A DNA stretch of 37,611 bases from assembly GCA_009785525.1 (NCBI GenBank), contig WQWC01000020.1, positions 1-37,611 of the forward strand, in the 5' to 3' direction. The translations under genes were made by a program, and so were the position numbers. The notes under the pieces are model-generated. The model was not told where the DNA came from. It did no database searches and saw only the letters and a program-made list of their open reading frames with translations. Of the stretch, positions 14,665-22,827 are shown piece by piece (position 1 is the stretch's first letter; each line of letters opens with the position of its first letter). This stretch comes from Oscillospiraceae bacterium (GTDB lineage Bacteria; Bacillota; Clostridia; Oscillospirales; Oscillospiraceae).

Positions 14665-15018
14665 ATGGTATTTACGTCGTTAGAAGCAGAGTTTTCTGTG
14701 TGCAAAATCCGCGATGCCCATGGTGTTGATTTTGCCCGCGACTTTGTTTTTCTGTCCAAAACCGACGAAGAAATATCCTTGGTCTGCCCATCCACCTGCG
14801 TACCGCAAGACGCTGTTGCCGTGGAGGTAGGGTGGAAAGCTTTTAGGATAGATGGGGTTTTAGATTTTGGACTGGTGGGGGTAATCGCCAATATAACCGG
14901 AACATTGGCGAACGCCGGCATCAGTGTGTTTGTTATTTCCACCTACAATACCGACTATGTCTTTATTAAATCTCACGATTTTGACAAAGGCCTGGCGCTG
15001 CTGGAAAATAAATATTGA
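14665..15018 (+). CDS. ACT-domain protein (CASTOR/ACT_7-like)
   Basis: A 117-residue protein. The C-terminal half is an ACT-type fold, GLVGVIANITGTLANAGISVFVISTYNTDYVFI (residues about 69-102), the hallmark of small-molecule (often amino-acid) binding domains of the ACT_7/CASTOR type. The N-terminal half (EEISLVCP, WKAFRIDG) fits the usual second half of this two-lobed family. GGAGGTGATC lies before the ATG. It directly precedes the amino-acid ABC transporter, suggesting an amino-acid-sensing role, but a separate promoter for the transporter overlaps its stop codon. No enzymatic domain is attached. Confidence 0.85.
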   Translation: MVFTSLEAEFSVCKIRDAHGVDFARDFVFLSKTDEEISLVCPSTCVPQDAVAVEVGWKAFRIDGVLDFGLVGVIANITGTLANAGISVFVISTYNTDYVFIKSHDFDKGLALLENKY

Positions 15019-15043
15019 ATTATTAACCATCAGGGTGTATAAT
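15015..15043 (+). promoter_or_regulatory. Promoter of the amino-acid ABC transporter operon
   Basis: TTGAAT (15015-15020), 17-bp spacer, TATAAT (15038-15043). The -35 overlaps the stop codon of the ACT-domain gene. AGGAGG follows at 15064-15069 before the binding-protein ATG. Confidence 0.75.
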
Positions 15044-15077
15044 ATTCGATAATTTGACTACTTAGGAGGACTATAGA

Positions 15078-15866
15078 ATGAAAAAGATTTTAGCAGTTTT
15101 GATAATTATTGCTATGGCTGTTCTTGCCCTGGCTGCCTGCGCGTCTGAGGATGCTGGTATCAGGACACTTGCCGACTTGGATGCACCGGGGATAAGGATC
15201 GGAGTTCAGACCGCCACGACGGGACATGCCTTCGCTGACGAGAACTTTCCCGATGCCTATGTTGATGCTTTTCCCCTGTTCACTGATGCTGTGATGGCTC
15301 TTCGCGCAGGATCAATTGACGCAGTTGTCATTGACGCAATACCCGGCGCCCAATTCGCCGCTGTGAATTATGGCTATATTATCCTCTTGCCGGAAACATT
15401 GACGGCTGAGTATTACGGCATTGCGTTCCAGCATGGCAGCCGATTAACGCCAATGTTTGACGACGCGATCAACCAGCTGCGCGCCGATGGTACATTCCAG
15501 GCTATCTATGATTATTGGATATTAGAGCTTGAGGGCGCCCCCCGATATGTCAGCCCGCCTGGGACGACTCACCCCAACGGTACGCTTCTTATGGCGACAA
15601 GCGCCGGATTCCCGCCGTTTGAGCTTTGGGAGAGTGACAGGATCGTTGGGTTTGATCCCTGTCTCGCGCAGGCCATCGGTGATATTCTGGGTTATCGCAT
15701 CGAAATCCTGGACATGGACTTCGGCGCGATTATTCCGGCGGTTCAGGCCGGGGCTGTGGACTTCGGCATGGCAGGGATGACCGTCCTGGATGAACGCCGC
15801 GAGTTTGTGGATTTTTCCCAGGGTTACTTCTACTCCGGACAGCACGTTCTTGTCAGGGTTCCCTAA
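15078..15866 (+). CDS. Polar amino-acid ABC transporter binding lipoprotein, circularly permuted
   Basis: A 262-residue lipoprotein (lipobox LAAC, Cys21) of the SBP_bac_3 family (GlnH/HisJ type), with its two halves in swapped order. Residues about 28-150 match the usual C-terminal part of GlnH (LADLDAPGIRIGVQTATTGH, then GSIDAVVIDAIP, EYYGIAFQHGS, LRADGTFQAIYDYW). Residues about 168-262 match the usual N-terminal part (LLMATSAGFPPFEL, RIVGFDPCLAQAI, GAVDFGMAGMTVLDERREFVDFS, ending YFYSGQHVLVRVP). Likely ligand-contact residues remain: R240 in the TxxER-type motif and D86. A short Gly/Pro/Thr linker (about 151-167) joins the halves. The frame is intact and the permease and ATPase follow, so the protein is probably functional. 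A fusion of two incomplete tandem copies is an alternative origin. Confidence 0.9.
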   Translation: MKKILAVLIIIAMAVLALAACASEDAGIRTLADLDAPGIRIGVQTATTGHAFADENFPDAYVDAFPLFTDAVMALRAGSIDAVVIDAIPGAQFAAVNYGYIILLPETLTAEYYGIAFQHGSRLTPMFDDAINQLRADGTFQAIYDYWILELEGAPRYVSPPGTTHPNGTLLMATSAGFPPFELWESDRIVGFDPCLAQAIGDILGYRIEILDMDFGAIIPAVQAGAVDFGMAGMTVLDERREFVDFSQGYFYSGQHVLVRVP

Positions 15867-15888: not shown

Positions 15889-15912
15889 AACCGAGGGGGC
15901 GCCCCCTCGGTT
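15889..15912 (+). promoter_or_regulatory. Intercistronic palindrome between binding protein and permease
   Basis: A perfect 24-bp palindrome (half-site AACCGAGGGGGC) begins 22 bases after the binding-protein stop. The RNA would form a 10-bp GC-rich stem. No T-run follows, which fits a 3' mRNA-stabilising or partial-termination element that keeps the binding protein more abundant than the membrane parts, a common arrangement in such operons (inference). Confidence 0.6.
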
Positions 15913-15939: not shown

Positions 15940-16686
15940 ATGATTGATTCGATCTCGGCAGTGCTTTACCGCAATTTTATCTACTCTGACCGGTATTTAC
16001 TCTGGCTCAGAGGGGTGCGGGCATCGCTGTCTATCGCCTTTTTCGCCCTGCTGCTCGGCATGGCGATCGGTCTTTTAATCGCAATAGTCCGCGTGTCGCA
16101 CGATTCAATGGCGAAACCTCACATTCTCTTGTGGATCCTAAATCGGATCATTAAATTGTACATATCGATAATCCGGGGGATACCAATGACTGTGCAGCTT
16201 TTGATCTGGTCCTTTGTCATTCTGGCAGCTTCGCGCAATCAGCTTCTGATAGGAAGCCTTGCTTTCGGCATTAACTCCGGCGCTTATGTTGCGGAGGTGT
16301 TCCGCGGCGGTATCGTGAGTGTGGATAAAGGTCAGGCGGAAGCCGGGCGAAGCTTAGGGTTGAGTTATCCGAAAACCATGACTAAAATAGTATTGCCGCA
16401 GGCGATAAAAAACAGTCTGCCTGCGATGGGTAATGAGTTTATCAACCTGTTCAAGCTGACTTCCATGGCAGGCATGGCGGCTATCACCGAGATAACCCAT
16501 GTCGGCAACATCCTGCGCGGTTTGACATTTGATCAGTCACCCCTGATTTTTGTATGCGTGTTTTACTTGATCATAGTGCTGATTTTGGAGTTTCTTGTCG
16601 GGCGGCTGGAAAAGCATCTGCGTAAGAGCGACCGGCCTGTTGTCGCAAGGCAAAAAAGAAGTGTATGGGACGGGTTTAGTAGATGA
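15940..16686 (+). CDS. Polar amino-acid ABC transporter permease
   Basis: A 248-residue inner-membrane permease of the HisM/GlnP family. Hydrophobic helices run through [37 protein letters not shown], and [21 protein letters not shown]. The EAA cytoplasmic loop that contacts the ATPase reads [22 protein letters not shown] (about residues 133-154). It probably works as a homodimer because only one permease gene is present. The ribosome binding site is weak (GGTGAG). Its TGA overlaps the ATPase ATG (ATGA). Confidence 0.93.
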
Positions 16687-17411
16687 TTAACGTTAAAGGC
16701 TTACATAAAAACTTCGGCTATGTGGAAGTTCTGCGCGGGATTGACGAGGAGATCGCACAGGGCGAGCGAGTCGTTATCATCGGGCCTTCGGGGAGCGGGA
16801 AGAGTACGTTTCTGCGTTGCCTGAATCTCTTGGAGTTCCCCACCGGCGGTGAGATATGGTTCGAGGGAGAGGAAATCGCAAGTCATAATAAAGGAAAAAA
16901 GCTTAACGAACACCGGCAAAAAATGGGCATGGTATTTCAGCATTTTAATCTTTTCCCACATTTAACCGTGGAGCAGAATATCACGCTGGCTCCGGTGACA
17001 TTAAAGAAAGCGGAAAAAGAAGCAGCGCGCACGGCGGCACGGCGTTTGCTTGAGCGGATCGGCCTTGACGCATGGGCGGAGAAATACCCAGCGACCCTTT
17101 CCGGCGGACAGAAGCAGCGCGTTGCCATCGTCCGCGCCTTGGCGATGGAGCCGCAAGTCATGCTGTTTGACGAGCCAACCAGCGCACTGGATCCCGAAAT
17201 GGTAGGAGAGGTGCTGGAGCTTATCCGCGAACTCGCGGCAGAGGGTATGACGATGGTCATGGTCACGCATGAGATGGGCTTTGCCCGAGAAGTGGGCAAC
17301 CGTGTGCTGTTCATGGACGAGGGGATTATTGTCGAACAAGGGGAGCCTGAACCGTTTTTCAGCAACCCGCAAAGTCCGCGTCTGCAAAACTTTTTGGCTA
17401 AAGTATTGTAG
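16683..17411 (+). CDS. Polar amino-acid ABC transporter ATP-binding protein (GlnQ-type)
   Basis: A 242-residue ABC ATPase that powers amino-acid import with the preceding permease and binding protein. Walker [10 protein letters not shown] (34-42), Q-loop Q86 in [14 protein letters not shown], signature LSGGQKQR (139-146), Walker [13 protein letters not shown] (catalytic E164) and switch His196. Motif spacing and length are typical of the GlnQ/HisP subfamily. The 4-base overlap with the permease shows translational coupling. The TAG stop is already inside a palindromic intergenic repeat. Confidence 0.96.
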
Positions 17412-17595: not shown

Positions 17596-20500
17596 TTATT
17601 CAAGAATCGTCAACACGTCATCCGTGCTCACGGTCAAGTATTCTCTGGCGCCGAAGTGTTGTACAATCAGACCCTCAGCCCGGAAAGTGCCGGGGCTTAC
17701 TACGCGGGCGTAGTAGTAATAGACACGCGCCTCGCCGAATCGGCTGTTGTGGTCGAAGAAGGTGACTCGCTGCCCTTCGGCAAAGGCTTGACGCCATTGC
17801 CCGGGTGTCTGCCGCATGTCGCCGAACCGCGCAGAGCCTGGTGTGTGAACAAGCCCCGCGGGCAGGAAATCGGTTATTTTGTATGAACCGGTCAGCGCTC
17901 TTCCGGAGTAATCTATCGTAATCTGTACACGCACTAAGTCACCCTGGTTGAATGTGTTTCTGGCAACCGTTTCACCGGCGCGGAAGAACTGGCGCGTTAT
18001 TGTGATGTCGCCGTTGGTGATTTCAATATCCGTGAGCGGCACACGATGAATTGACACCGCACCCACGTCGCCTGTTACAGAAGCTATGTTAAACTCGCGC
18101 AGATTTTGTGAGGGGATACGCAGCGTAAAGCTTTTCCCCGTTGAAAGGTCGCGGGTTACTTCATCGCCGAACAGAGTATACGTGATGCTTGCGGGCTGGT
18201 CGTTCACGTTTTCGATTTCGTAAATAATAAACGACAGTTGCTGGATACTTACCAATAAATCCCACGTATGGTTTCTGACGGTGTACTGGTGTAAACCCAT
18301 ACGCTCCGGCATGTTGAGTTGCGCGGCCAGCAGCGCGGTGACGGAAGTAGCGTCCAGTATATCGGCACGAGTCCGGCCGGTGTACACGCGGTAATACGGC
18401 GCCATCCGCTGGATATGTGGCAGGATACGGTCGTTGTACAGCGCGCGGGCCGTGTGAGTTTCGCCCAGCGCAACGAAGCCCAGCGCGATATAGGAGATGT
18501 CGCGGACAGGCAGGTCTTGAATCGCTGCGTAGCCGTGCAAGTCCATGAGCACAGGTTCCCCAAGCTGTGCCAGACCATACAGTGCGCGCATTTTGTTCTC
18601 GGCCGAGTCCCCTTCGAAAATCCCGTAAAGATAATTACGCAGGGCGTGTGCGTTAATTTCATCCAAAATAAACGGCATCATCCGGACTGTCACGGCTAGG
18701 TCACTTTCGGAATAGGGCAGCATGGATATGCCGCCGTCTTCCCGCTGATAGTCCCGCGGGTCGAAGCTGTCTTCACCCACATACAGGCTAAGATCGGGGA
18801 AATGCTGTTGTATAAGCCGGTTAGCTTCGCGCCGCATGACCAAGCCCTCAATCCGTGCGCCGCGTACCCAGCGCATACTCATCAATTCGCCTAAAAATTG
18901 ACTGCGCCCGCGGTCTGTGAAGGTGATTTGTGTCATTCCGGGTCCGCCGGCCGCGAATCTGGTTCCGGCAGTCACGTCATAGAATACGGCTGTGTCAATC
19001 AGCCTGTGGGAGTTGATTACCTGGAAATTATGCCGCACAGCGTCAGAGAGACCGTTCTCGCAAACGGCGCGAATGATAATCGAGTGTGCGCCCTCTTCTG
19101 TCATTTCCCACAGAGGAATATTTATGCGCTCAAAAGCCGTGCCCTCAGCGCGGAGGATGTTATGTGGCGCGGCATCATCCCAAACCTCGAACGTCACCCT
19201 TTCTCCGCCCGAAAAGGCCGTGCCGTAGGCATTCACGCCGATAACAGGCGTGTCGCCCACAAGGAATACGTTGTTAAGCGAATAATGCACAAACATAGGG
19301 TTGGTAACGATAATGCTGGAAACATCGTTCCCCGCGTATAAATTGTCAGTTATGCCCGAAACGGTCAGCCGCCAGGACGTGATGTTGTCGGGCAGATTAA
19401 AGCTGAACGTAGCCTCGCCGCGCGCATTGGTTCGCAAAGATGCGAAAACGGCGGTGTCTTCAAAGATATCCCGGACGTGAGTATCCGCTCCACCATAGCC
19501 GCTTGCCATTCCGGAGTCAGCTTCCATGGCTGCGGATTCGGGCATAAGCATGTCCGTAGCAGCATATCCGCCACGAGCCCCAAACATCACATCGTCATGC
19601 CCGTCGCTCATAAACGTCCTGTGTGTCGCAATATTATGCCGCACGCCGGACGGTATATGTCTGTACAGAGAGGAGCGTGTATCCACCGTATAATCCCGCA
19701 GCGCGAACAGCGCTTCATCCACCGCGGAGATATTAACATGCGCCCGCATGGGGTTACCATCGACATCGGTGGCTCGGACCGTCACGGTCGCCGTGTCACC
19801 GGGGCTGTATACATCCAGGTCAGTGGTCACATTCAGCACCAGCTCGCGGCTTGCGCTGTTAAAGCGCAGGGTTTCACGCATACGCCAGCCTGAACGGTAG
19901 GTATGCCCGTTGAAATGCACTGCGTATATGGTCGCGTTCGGCAAATGCTCCTCGCCGAAAGTAAACGTCAACGGGTTCACGCCGACATAGTATTCCAGTA
20001 TACCGTTGCTTGCGACAACGAACAAGAACCCGCCATGCGTCATCGCTTCCGTCCCGCTCATCACAGTGAGACGCACTTCTTCGCCGATGTCATAACACTC
20101 GCCCCACGGTCTTGCGCCATCCAGGAACGGTTCTCCGCTTTCCGCGTTTGAAAAGAAGTGCCACCAATCACGCCCGATGAAAGCATCATGCGATATACGG
20201 CGGCCGTTGCCGTCGGTGGTGCCAACGCGCGCGATATAGCTCTCATTTTCGCGGTTAGGCACGGTGAAATCCCGGGTTGCGCCGCCGTCTGCATCGGTTG
20301 TCAACGTAAAGCGTTCAATAACTTCCTCACGGCGGTCATGCCGGTACCGGGGGACGACCACGCGCTCAATAAAACAATAACGCTCACCGGTACGCACAGC
20401 CACCCAATACACGCGGACAATTTCTACTGACAGCGTTTGTCCCGCGACAGGTTGGTCGAGGAAATCCCAAGAATGCGCCGCCGTGCCTTCATTGATTCTG

Positions 20501-22701
20501 TCCAGCGTGATTGTGTTTACATCCACGGACAAATTGGCGTTTTCGCCGATACGTGACGCCTGCACTTGCACATCTATATCGTTGACAAACACTTGCAGGC
20601 CTGCAGAGCGTGACGTCCGTCCGATTTCGGGAAGGGTGGCTTCTGCGGTGAAGTACAAGCCCGCTTGCCCCTGTGCGTCTCTTTCGGGCGTAATATTCGT
20701 TATAGTCACATCCATTTCGCCATCGATGTTTGTAACACCCTGCTGCCCCCATATATCATGTTGCAGTTGCCAGCCCCATAGGCTGTATGACACATTCAGA
20801 TCCGGTACCGGCGTCCCTTCAAAGAACTCCGCCCGCGCGGTAAACGTGACCGATTCGCCGACGAATGCCGCATTCCTGTCGGCCGTGACCAACATTTGAT
20901 AAGGCGGCTTGACATAATCCCGCACTTCAAAAAATACCGAACCCAGCACAATATCGCCGTGGTTAATCGTCAGCCTGTACGACCCCGGATCCAGGTTCGG
21001 CAAATCTATATGACCTGAATAGGCGCCGCCGCGTATAGCGACAGTCTGCCGGTGCAATGTATCGCGCGTACCGAACCGCCCAAACCCCCAGCCTTCGGTG
21101 AGAGTTGCGGATACGTAATTTATTTCCTCACTATACGCACGACTTTGCGCAAAGCCCCAGAAATTCAAGGTGTCATCGCGCTGGAACAGCGTCCTATCCA
21201 GTTGCAGCGCCGTCCAATAAGCGTCGCTGGGTTGCGGTGCGCTCCACCACCCCCAAGTGGGGTGAACCGGACTGATATGCCTTGCATGGAATATGATATT
21301 GCGCTTCCCGTCGGGCGCGGTGATAATCAGCATATCCGCCGTGTCAGTCACTCCACCGTTGAGAATTGCAATCCCGTTTTCATCCGTCTCACCTGAGCGC
21401 GACGAATCTTGAACCTGCGCACCCTGAGCGGGCCGCCCCGTGACCATATCATTGACCCAGACGAGAGTCATGTCATCGTCCGCGATTATCTGCACCGCCA
21501 AGTCGGTGATTTGCAGTATCATTTGGTCGCTTGTTTCGTTATTGATGGATGCGTTGATTATATAGAACCCGGGCGGCAGCGCGTCGGGCAGCTGCAATGT
21601 TTCAAACCACTGCCATTCGTCCTGCCCTTGCGGCTCTGTTATTGTCATAGATGCCGTCCGCGTGAGAGATGACACGTCCACAAAGCTGTCGCGCCACGCG
21701 AACCATGCCCAGCGCGGCACGGTCAGCAGATTCTGCACCGCTTCCACGGCTTGTTCGTTGTCGTTAAACCGATACACGCCGATGTTGACAGCGGGTCTGG
21801 TGCCGTCCCATGGATAATTTACCATGTAATTGATCCTAGGCGGCTCAAAAGACGGATATTCAGTGTAGACGGTACCAAAATGGAACGACTCCGTCTGCTG
21901 CTGCCGCACCAGGTCGTCTCCGGATGTTTCAAACGAAAATACATAGTCTTCGCCAATTACTTCGTCTGTATCCGGCAAACTGATTCCGGCTGTGATGGTA
22001 ACGGTGTACAACTGCCCCTGCTCCAGCGGATTTGTCGGCATAAAAACGACAGTAGCCCCGCGTTGTATAAACCGCCCCTCAACGGCCGGATACATGCGAA
22101 AATGCTCCCGTATATCCGTATGCCCACCGGCGGAAAAATTAATTTCAATCCCCGTGTTGATCGGCACATTGACGGATTCATGCCCGGGCAATGTGGACAT
22201 TATCTGGAACCGTGCCGTTGTCTGGAATGTCCACGTTATGTCTTCCGTCCCCTCACGCGTCAGCCGTAAGGTATACAACCTGTTATGCGCAAGCGGCGTT
22301 ACCGGTGTAACCAGAAACGTGCCGTCATCCTGCCGTGTTACAACCGGCAGCGGCTGCCCGTCGATTGAAATCATAGGCAAGTACCCCGGCGGCGCCGCAG
22401 TAGGCACGGTCAGCAGGAACGCGCTTGCCACATCCACCCCGGCCGCGCCGAATGACTGCGGTACAAGGGTATGTCCCTCCCTAGACGTTTCAAATATGTC
22501 CTGCCACGCCAGTCGCTCGACAACCGGTCTGTTTGCTCCCGCTCCCATAGCCTCCACAGAAAGTGGCATTTGCGTCATGTCGATTTCTCGCGCATTTGAC
22601 GTAATTCCCGTTTCACCGCCCGGCGACACACCACACGCCCCTAAAAGAAGGGCAGCTGCTGTAACAAGCAGAACTAGAATTCTCTGGCTTTTCATCATCA
22701 T
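17596..22701 (-). CDS. Alpha-2-macroglobulin-family lipoprotein without thioester
   Basis: A roughly 1701-residue lipoprotein. The signal peptide ends in lipobox LLLGAC followed by GV. Bacterial MG/Ig-like domains follow (MLVTADRNAAFVGESVTFTA is one). An A2M domain lies at about 1088-1110 (NARGEATFSFNLPDNITSW), then an alpha-helical region corresponding to the thioester domain, and a C-terminal DUF11/receptor-binding-like part (FNQGDLVRVQITI, YKITDFLPAGL). Family knowledge: bacterial homologues (YfaS) trap proteases at the envelope. Where CxEQ should be (about residue 1280) the sequence is RGARIEGLVMRREAN, so the thioester Cys and Gln are absent. Three successive ATGs (22701, 22698, 22695) follow AAAGGGG; the first has 5-base spacing, the second 8, so either may be used. 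The longer upstream frame is non-conserved. Confidence 0.9.
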   Translation of the reverse strand: MMMKSQRILVLLVTAAALLLGACGVSPGGETGITSNAREIDMTQMPLSVEAMGAGANRPVVERLAWQDIFETSREGHTLVPQSFGAAGVDVASAFLLTVPTAAPPGYLPMISIDGQPLPVVTRQDDGTFLVTPVTPLAHNRLYTLRLTREGTEDITWTFQTTARFQIMSTLPGHESVNVPINTGIEINFSAGGHTDIREHFRMYPAVEGRFIQRGATVVFMPTNPLEQGQLYTVTITAGISLPDTDEVIGEDYVFSFETSGDDLVRQQQTESFHFGTVYTEYPSFEPPRINYMVNYPWDGTRPAVNIGVYRFNDNEQAVEAVQNLLTVPRWAWFAWRDSFVDVSSLTRTASMTITEPQGQDEWQWFETLQLPDALPPGFYIINASINNETSDQMILQITDLAVQIIADDDMTLVWVNDMVTGRPAQGAQVQDSSRSGETDENGIAILNGGVTDTADMLIITAPDGKRNIIFHARHISPVHPTWGWWSAPQPSDAYWTALQLDRTLFQRDDTLNFWGFAQSRAYSEEINYVSATLTEGWGFGRFGTRDTLHRQTVAIRGGAYSGHIDLPNLDPGSYRLTINHGDIVLGSVFFEVRDYVKPPYQMLVTADRNAAFVGESVTFTARAEFFEGTPVPDLNVSYSLWGWQLQHDIWGQQGVTNIDGEMDVTITNITPERDAQGQAGLYFTAEATLPEIGRTSRSAGLQVFVNDIDVQVQASRIGENANLSVDVNTITLDRINEGTAAHSWDFLDQPVAGQTLSVEIVRVYWVAVRTGERYCFIERVVVPRYRHDRREEVIERFTLTTDADGGATRDFTVPNRENESYIARVGTTDGNGRRISHDAFIGRDWWHFFSNAESGEPFLDGARPWGECYDIGEEVRLTVMSGTEAMTHGGFLFVVASNGILEYYVGVNPLTFTFGEEHLPNATIYAVHFNGHTYRSGWRMRETLRFNSASRELVLNVTTDLDVYSPGDTATVTVRATDVDGNPMRAHVNISAVDEALFALRDYTVDTRSSLYRHIPSGVRHNIATHRTFMSDGHDDVMFGARGGYAATDMLMPESAAMEADSGMASGYGGADTHVRDIFEDTAVFASLRTNARGEATFSFNLPDNITSWRLTVSGITDNLYAGNDVSSIIVTNPMFVHYSLNNVFLVGDTPVIGVNAYGTAFSGGERVTFEVWDDAAPHNILRAEGTAFERINIPLWEMTEEGAHSIIIRAVCENGLSDAVRHNFQVINSHRLIDTAVFYDVTAGTRFAAGGPGMTQITFTDRGRSQFLGELMSMRWVRGARIEGLVMRREANRLIQQHFPDLSLYVGEDSFDPRDYQREDGGISMLPYSESDLAVTVRMMPFILDEINAHALRNYLYGIFEGDSAENKMRALYGLAQLGEPVLMDLHGYAAIQDLPVRDISYIALGFVALGETHTARALYNDRILPHIQRMAPYYRVYTGRTRADILDATSVTALLAAQLNMPERMGLHQYTVRNHTWDLLVSIQQLSFIIYEIENVNDQPASITYTLFGDEVTRDLSTGKSFTLRIPSQNLREFNIASVTGDVGAVSIHRVPLTDIEITNGDITITRQFFRAGETVARNTFNQGDLVRVQITIDYSGRALTGSYKITDFLPAGLVHTPGSARFGDMRQTPGQWRQAFAEGQRVTFFDHNSRFGEARVYYYYARVVSPGTFRAEGLIVQHFGAREYLTVSTDDVLTILE

Positions 22702-22776
22702 TTCATCCCCTTTCACGTGTTTAGTATAATAATCATTAGACGATAGACGCAGCAAAATGTTCCATCGAATAATAAG

Positions 22777-22827
22777 AACAATCATTCGGGCTATGAATAT
22801 TTAGATGGTGCAGGCGTTATCTGTCAA
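22777..22827 (-). promoter_or_regulatory. Probable promoter and 5' hairpin of the macroglobulin gene
   Basis: On the minus strand TTGACA (22822-22827), 18-bp spacer, TAAATA (22798-22803). Predicted transcription starts near 22791. The first transcribed bases, CCCGAATGATTGTT (22790-22777), can form a hairpin with following ATTATTCG. The same bases are complementary to the tracrRNA anti-repeat (see findings). Confidence 0.5.

Follow-up and report, generated by a model that had tools for sequence, protein, structure and literature searches.

Circular permutation of the SBP_bac_3 domain in a predicted lipoprotein from an Oscillospiraceae ABC importer locus

Proteins of the SBP_bac_3 family serve as textbook examples of ligand-driven closure and as common sensor scaffolds, and a gene at 15078..15866 in a 37,611-nucleotide stretch of Oscillospiraceae DNA (hereafter the window) raises the question of whether such a protein can carry its two halves in reverse order and still serve an ATP-binding cassette (ABC) importer. 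A preliminary description of this gene had placed the C-terminal half (C-half) of a GlnH-type protein first and the N-terminal half (N-half) last, and comparison with solved GlnH-type chains by phmmer bears this out, revealing two matching stretches whose order is reversed in the window protein: residues 7-103 of AncQR (4zv1) align with query residues 165-260 (independent E-value 6.6e-22) and residues 109-231 with query residues 28-148 (4.2e-11). The Pfam model SBP_bac_3 (PF00497) matches the N-half only, at residues 171-260 (94.2 bits against a gathering score of 26.4). We built a 219-position profile from canonical relatives and scanned rotations of the mature protein against it, restarting the chain every 3 residues. 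The native chain gives two separate matches of 104.9 and 95.1 bits, restarting at residues 150-165 gives a single domain covering profile positions 3-218 at 209.4 bits, and the lowest-scoring restart reaches 96.9 bits. Both halves are complete (canonical positions 3-94 and 95-218), and the protein, departing from the N-half-then-C-half order of canonical members, is a permuted derivative of the family. The NCBIfam GlnH model NF007029 scores 132 bits in two stretches, below its curated cut-off of 303 because the segment order is broken, and the window protein should not be assigned glutamine specificity. The alignments place the new ends just past hinge 1 (canonical 94-97) and a predicted linker at the site of the former termini; in GlnBP, the available text of PMC13229503 gives the hinge as residues 85-89 and the small domain as 90-180. 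The window protein is thus a true circular permutation of the SBP_bac_3 domain at the hinge. The earlier wording that the lobe order is reversed holds for the reordering of segments and fails as a simple swap of two contiguous lobes, since the N- and C-termini of GlnH both belong to the large lobe. Very probably, this gene encodes a working, naturally permuted lipoprotein of the SBP_bac_3 family that binds amino acids for a three-gene ABC importer, one among several independent permutations that seem largely neutral for docking.

Structure prediction had been proposed as a check on this reading, and AlphaFold2, given 20 aligned permuted sequences, returned a single two-lobed domain in one confident model (predicted local distance difference test (pLDDT) 93.0, predicted template modelling score (pTM) 0.83). 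Long strands at residues 109-117 and 251-260 occupy the expected sites of both hinge strands. The predicted fold is that of a two-lobed type II periplasmic binding protein, and the sequence-order structure matches are type II binding proteins; the best Foldseek template modelling scores are about 0.5 or lower, which is what a permuted chain should give with a method bound to sequence order, and the top match, OpuAC of Bacillus subtilis, comes from a type of aligner that may also lay lobe on lobe. A gapless match to 1ggg (chain 5-95 to query 170-260) relates the pocket to that of GlnBP, whose ligand-contacting residues we take to be D10, F13, F50, A67, G68, T70 and R75. Of these, F13, F50, A67, G68, T70 and R75 correspond to F178, F215, A232, G233, T235 and R240, D10 corresponds to S175, and the small-lobe aspartate, D86, is matched solely through its motif. 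The earlier view that both halves are complete with their ligand residues is therefore right about completeness, and the serine at the D10 position speaks against a full ligand set. The pocket arginine R240 and its neighbours are retained in the window protein and its relatives, and binding of an amino acid is inferred from these sequence features.

In the working that we propose, the protein would be exported as a lipoprotein and anchored through Cys21 of its visible lipobox. Six residues separate Cys21 from the small-lobe segment, which begins at I28, an anatomy from which the suggested tethering by the opposite, small lobe follows. Sequence and model together predict that the chain builds the small lobe first, crosses the hinge a single time through strand 109-117 into the C-terminal portion of the large lobe, passes the short linker at the old termini, and completes the large lobe, which there carries the pocket motif AGMT....R240, before ending in hinge strand 251-260. 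The small lobe would then be tied to the anchor by a short leash, about 6 residues long, and the C-terminus would be free at the end of the second hinge strand. From the pocket residues, the gene order and what is known of the family, we suggest that the two lobes close around an amino acid, which then passes to the neighbouring permease and ATPase.

We next give the distribution of this chain order among relatives, where L-numbers denote individual loci, G-numbers denote genomes, and C-N denotes a C-half followed by an N-half. A search with a 20-row profile (A1) matched 125 of 150 family genomes at an E-value of 1e-25; the best match covering the N-half alone is 2.4e-42, and 39 of the 150 genomes have a best match of 1e-44 or lower. 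All 30 loci fetched from this family-level search are permuted. The 1e-44 threshold is passed at the phylum level by 15 of 398 genomes, whose loci comprise 13 permuted proteins, one canonical tandem (L132) and one incomplete protein (L142). We classified 156 units as 68 canonical, 55 C-N, 17 array, 14 c2-N-c1 and 2 canonical-tandem, a set gathered mainly with C-N queries in which proportions mean little; three of the 55 C-N units repeat L001/L002, seven repeat loci were excluded beforehand, and the open reading frame (ORF) L142 fitted no class. Four cut points emerge on the 219-position profile: canonical 94-97 in the window and most permuted loci (cut 1), 106/107 in L111 and L136-L140 (cut 2), about 126/130 in L141, L040 and probably L118 (cut 3), and 167/168 in the c2-N-c1 set, for example L012, L015 and L112 (cut 4). 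All four fall in the small lobe or its hinge, with ends complementary to within a few residues, the loci tabulated having been retrieved mostly by C-N queries. When 25 genomes were searched with the canonical profile irrespective of half order, no cut in the large lobe was seen, some partial matches there, such as 5-208 and 2-181, being left unread. The c2-N-c1 form, cut just ahead of hinge 2, is found in L012, L015, L036, L112, L114, L115, L123, L125, L126 and others, and its genes adjoin permease and ATPase genes wherever the locus is long enough.

Some C-N units occur in arrays, with two units in L013, L014, L122, L127 and L133, three in L017 and four in L016 (G026:C5), and a permease domain is fused in every array tested (L013, L014, L016 and L017). 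A model of the two-unit stretch of L013 from five sequences (pLDDT 81.7, pTM 0.49) has a floppy segment at 235-248 between the units; structure matches treat 10-236 and 251-474 as compact units with a root-mean-square deviation (rmsd) mostly of 3-4, and the middle N1-C2 order gives an rmsd of about 12. The floppy segment and the compact C-N matches therefore lead us to predict that array proteins are beads of permuted (C+N) domains. In contrast to these, L132:1099-2682 encodes a soluble canonical tandem, N-C-N-C, whose two near-identical units are likely a recent duplication. Taken together, tandem and arrays suggest that permutation probably came about by tandem duplication and later trimming; the window gene most likely would have arisen from duplication of a gene or domain, after which the first N-half and the last C-half were lost. 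The tandem intermediate anticipated in the preliminary description thus exists elsewhere in the family, in L132, but not on the window's own branch.

Does the new order alter how the protein meets its permease? Permeases 76% identical serve L081 (C-N) and L095 (canonical), a second pair 76% identical serves L101 (C-N) and L112 (c2-N-c1), and a pair 73% identical serves L036 (c2-N-c1) and L048 (canonical). Closely related permeases therefore presumably work beside partners of differing chain order, so docking seems tolerant of chain topology and the permutation largely neutral for it, a result that goes against the earlier suggestion of a changed geometry towards the permease. The length of the leash is another matter. 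From the lipid-bearing cysteine to the domain, the median distance is 24 residues in 65 canonical proteins, 7 in 45 C-N proteins and 6 in 15 c2-N-c1 proteins, with the cysteine identified by a simple pattern and proteins lacking a match excluded. When proteins were paired phylogenetically, starred branches supplied 7 independent pairs, among which the difference was not significant (median p 0.5). We dropped the short leash as a general rule, its significance being lost once relatedness was considered, and keep the suggestive short leash of permuted proteins as a lead. A wider reading holds that chain order in clostridial SBP_bac_3 proteins is labile in evolution, one importer family switching among the canonical order and at least four permuted ones, always through cuts in the small lobe, and that selection favours a small-lobe anchor on a very short leash, holding the protein in place rather than letting it roam; we regard this as tentative and rather unlikely.

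Phylogenetic analysis bears on how often the change occurred. In a tree of 85 domains restored to canonical order, the C-N label changes 11 times in the best tree and at least 7 changes are forced by starred branches; removing 14 long-branch or degenerate rows by choice leaves 71 rows and still 10 C-N changes. Downstream permeases provide an independent gene, and a tree of 73 of them shows 16 label changes, 10 of them for C-N, of which starred branches force 7 or more, although at the two-system loci L040, L057, L080 and L050 the permease in the tree may belong to the other system. In both trees the C-N label lumps cuts 1 to 3, and its changes are not readable as gains or losses. On the 71 rows, monophyly is rejected by the approximately unbiased (AU) test both for the C-N rows (p 9.9e-7) and for all permuted rows taken together (p 8.9e-63). 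Permutation thus appears to have arisen several times in SBP_bac_3, with at least four cut points. The alternative of a single ancient permutation followed by repeated reversion to canonical order draws on the fact that change counts on a tree cannot tell gain from loss; we hold it improbable, as at least four distinct cut points cannot come from one event and each reversion would require the same duplication-and-trim steps.

A further question is whether one gene or two supplied the halves. Conservation is unequal, the window clade having a best mean identity of 0.54 in the N-half and 0.40 in the C-half against 19 canonical rows, as might be expected if halves of two different binding-protein genes had been fused. 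Against such a fusion, the same canonical relatives rank at the top for each half (L046, L018 and L060 among the best), the identities of the two halves correlate (r 0.79 for the 19 rows and 0.85 for all pairs of the 85 rows), and the cut points are complementary to within a few residues, leaving the fusion decidedly improbable and favouring permutation of one gene or its duplicate.

An SBP_bac_3 search of the window genome returned two genes, both permuted. The second, L002:1396-2160 (G000:C41), encodes a C-N SBP-like lipoprotein that has no adjacent permease and has lost the pocket arginine. It lies directly 3′ of an ftsH-like gene, as do its counterparts at all 12 fetched same-genus loci (L148-L159, chosen from 18 genomes), and the arrangement does not hold in G130 (L160); this paralogue may be an FtsH partner or an envelope sensor. 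That the genome's only other detected SBP_bac_3 gene is of this kind lends some support to the view that the window protein, too, is a transporter-fold lipoprotein that no longer feeds transport and acts as a sensor or accessory. The window protein, however, retains the pocket arginine and directly precedes permease and ATPase genes in an order kept across orthologues, and we consider a role outside transport very improbable.

A search of 18 other genomes of the same genus, made as a check on the permutation, found orthologues with this half order in 7 of them at 60-90% identity, and six further database records contain them too (L027-L032, 54-90% identity; L027 and L028 most likely derive from the same genomes as L003 and L007). 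Relatives L003-L009 and L029-L032 retain the permuted order at 55-90% identity over the alignment. The intact permease and ATPase genes reported 3′ of the window gene are both present, and the order binding protein, permease, ATPase recurs in L003, L004, L006-L009 and L029-L032, with L005 ending after the permease. The permuted gene is under purifying selection: the ratio of nonsynonymous to synonymous substitution rates (dN/dS) is 0.087 against L003 (90% identical) and 0.081-0.082 for two more distant pairs. Although the window genome is an incomplete assembly of 70 contigs (96% complete), we rejected a chimera or fragment that wrongly joins two adjacent binding-protein genes, the chance of which is negligible because orthologues of the same order exist in many genomes, including records from other studies, the gene is a single open frame with a signal peptide and a low dN/dS, and a different permuted protein occurs in the one-contig genome G130.

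Permuted binding proteins are already known. Canonical SBP_bac_3 proteins (GlnH/GlnBP, HisJ and ArgBP; PF00497) share with the window protein both halves, the pocket motif, the predicted two-lobed fold, the lipoprotein form and the permease and ATPase partners, and the window protein differs in its C-half, linker, N-half order and its small-lobe anchor. OpuAC of B. subtilis and ProX, both glycine-betaine binding proteins, are a known permuted pair; OpuAC belongs to another family (9% identity to the window protein) and another ligand class, repeated permutation at several cut points is not described for the pair in the available text, and the available text of PMC2861598, on OpuA, makes no mention of permutation. 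TpMglB-2 (Tp0684) of Treponema pallidum, proposed as type Ic or cluster Bc, is a natural circularly permuted, lipid-anchored ABC binding protein that binds its ligand and closes, and for which the authors suggest tethering as a possible driver (PMC4990184). It has a type I sugar-binding fold and a fourth hinge crossing, and its moved part matches poorly. The window protein instead belongs to a type II amino-acid family and has a clear sequence match in both halves. This contrast of type I and type II folds rests on family knowledge. GlnP of Lactococcus (6h30) has a canonical tandem, SBD1-SBD2, fused to its permease and so shares tandem and fusion with the clostridial arrays, whereas the arrays run from an initial C-half to a final N-half, and folding into C+N units is predicted for them. 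Among the matches listed (60 of 90 chains), 6h30 is the only solved chain with an uninterrupted match to the C-N profile, since the C-half of SBD1 is followed by the N-half of SBD2, and there is no solved permuted SBP_bac_3 structure. We found no report of natural permutation in SBP_bac_3 in the open-access literature, most subscription papers lying outside this scope. Chain order in this well-known family is less fixed than assumed, and repeated permutation beside related permeases is a natural experiment on what chain order, hinge connectivity and anchor placement mean for closure, docking and uptake. The natural cut points inform engineers which cuts are tolerated, and permutation explains fragment-like scores from standard models.

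Table 1. Annotated features of the importer locus (window coordinates)
Feature	Position	Strand	Basis
Candidate promoter-like pair TTGAAT-17-TATAAT, 5′ of binding-protein gene	15015..15043	+	Consensus scan, 10/12 matches
Ribosome-binding site AGGAGG	15064..15069	+	Read from sequence
Circularly permuted SBP_bac_3 lipoprotein gene, 262 aa + stop	15078..15866	+	ORF list, Pfam, phmmer, rotation scan, AlphaFold2
Lipoprotein signal peptide, residues 1-21, lipobox LAAC, lipid-bearing Cys21	15078..15140	+	Sequence; model helix 2-21
Canonical C-half, now first, residues 23-148, profile positions 95-218	15144..15521	+	phmmer, profile, model
New linker, residues 149-167, canonical C-terminus to canonical N-terminus	15522..15578	+	Gap between profile matches; restart optimum 150-165
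Canonical N-half, now last, residues 168-260, profile positions 3-96	15579..15857	+	phmmer, profile, model
GC-rich perfect hairpin, binding-protein/permease intergenic	15889..15912	.	Folding
Permease, amino-acid (HEQRo) type, BPD_transp_1	15940..16686	+	Profile matches
ATPase, GlnQ/TcyN type, ABC_tran	16683..17411	+	Profile matches

Promoter-like sites at the match level of the candidate in Table 1 number 6, against 3.0 in shuffles. Hairpins between genes of this kind are usually credited with raising the ratio of binding protein to permease. Strong intergenic hairpins, judged by eye and with approximate borders, are present in 10 of the 12 binding-protein/permease stretches that we folded, the window included and L008 and L030 being those without one; in most relatives the window's hairpin is swapped for other strong hairpins. 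Just 5′ of the importer, positions 14665-15018 encode an ACT-domain protein; the closest relative, L003, carries such a gene in the same place with 83% identity, and the flanks of the other orthologues, short as examined, gave no match. Facing the importer from the minus strand at 17596-22785, a 1729-aa ORF has a lipoprotein-like start and by eye resembles bacterial alpha-2-macroglobulin.
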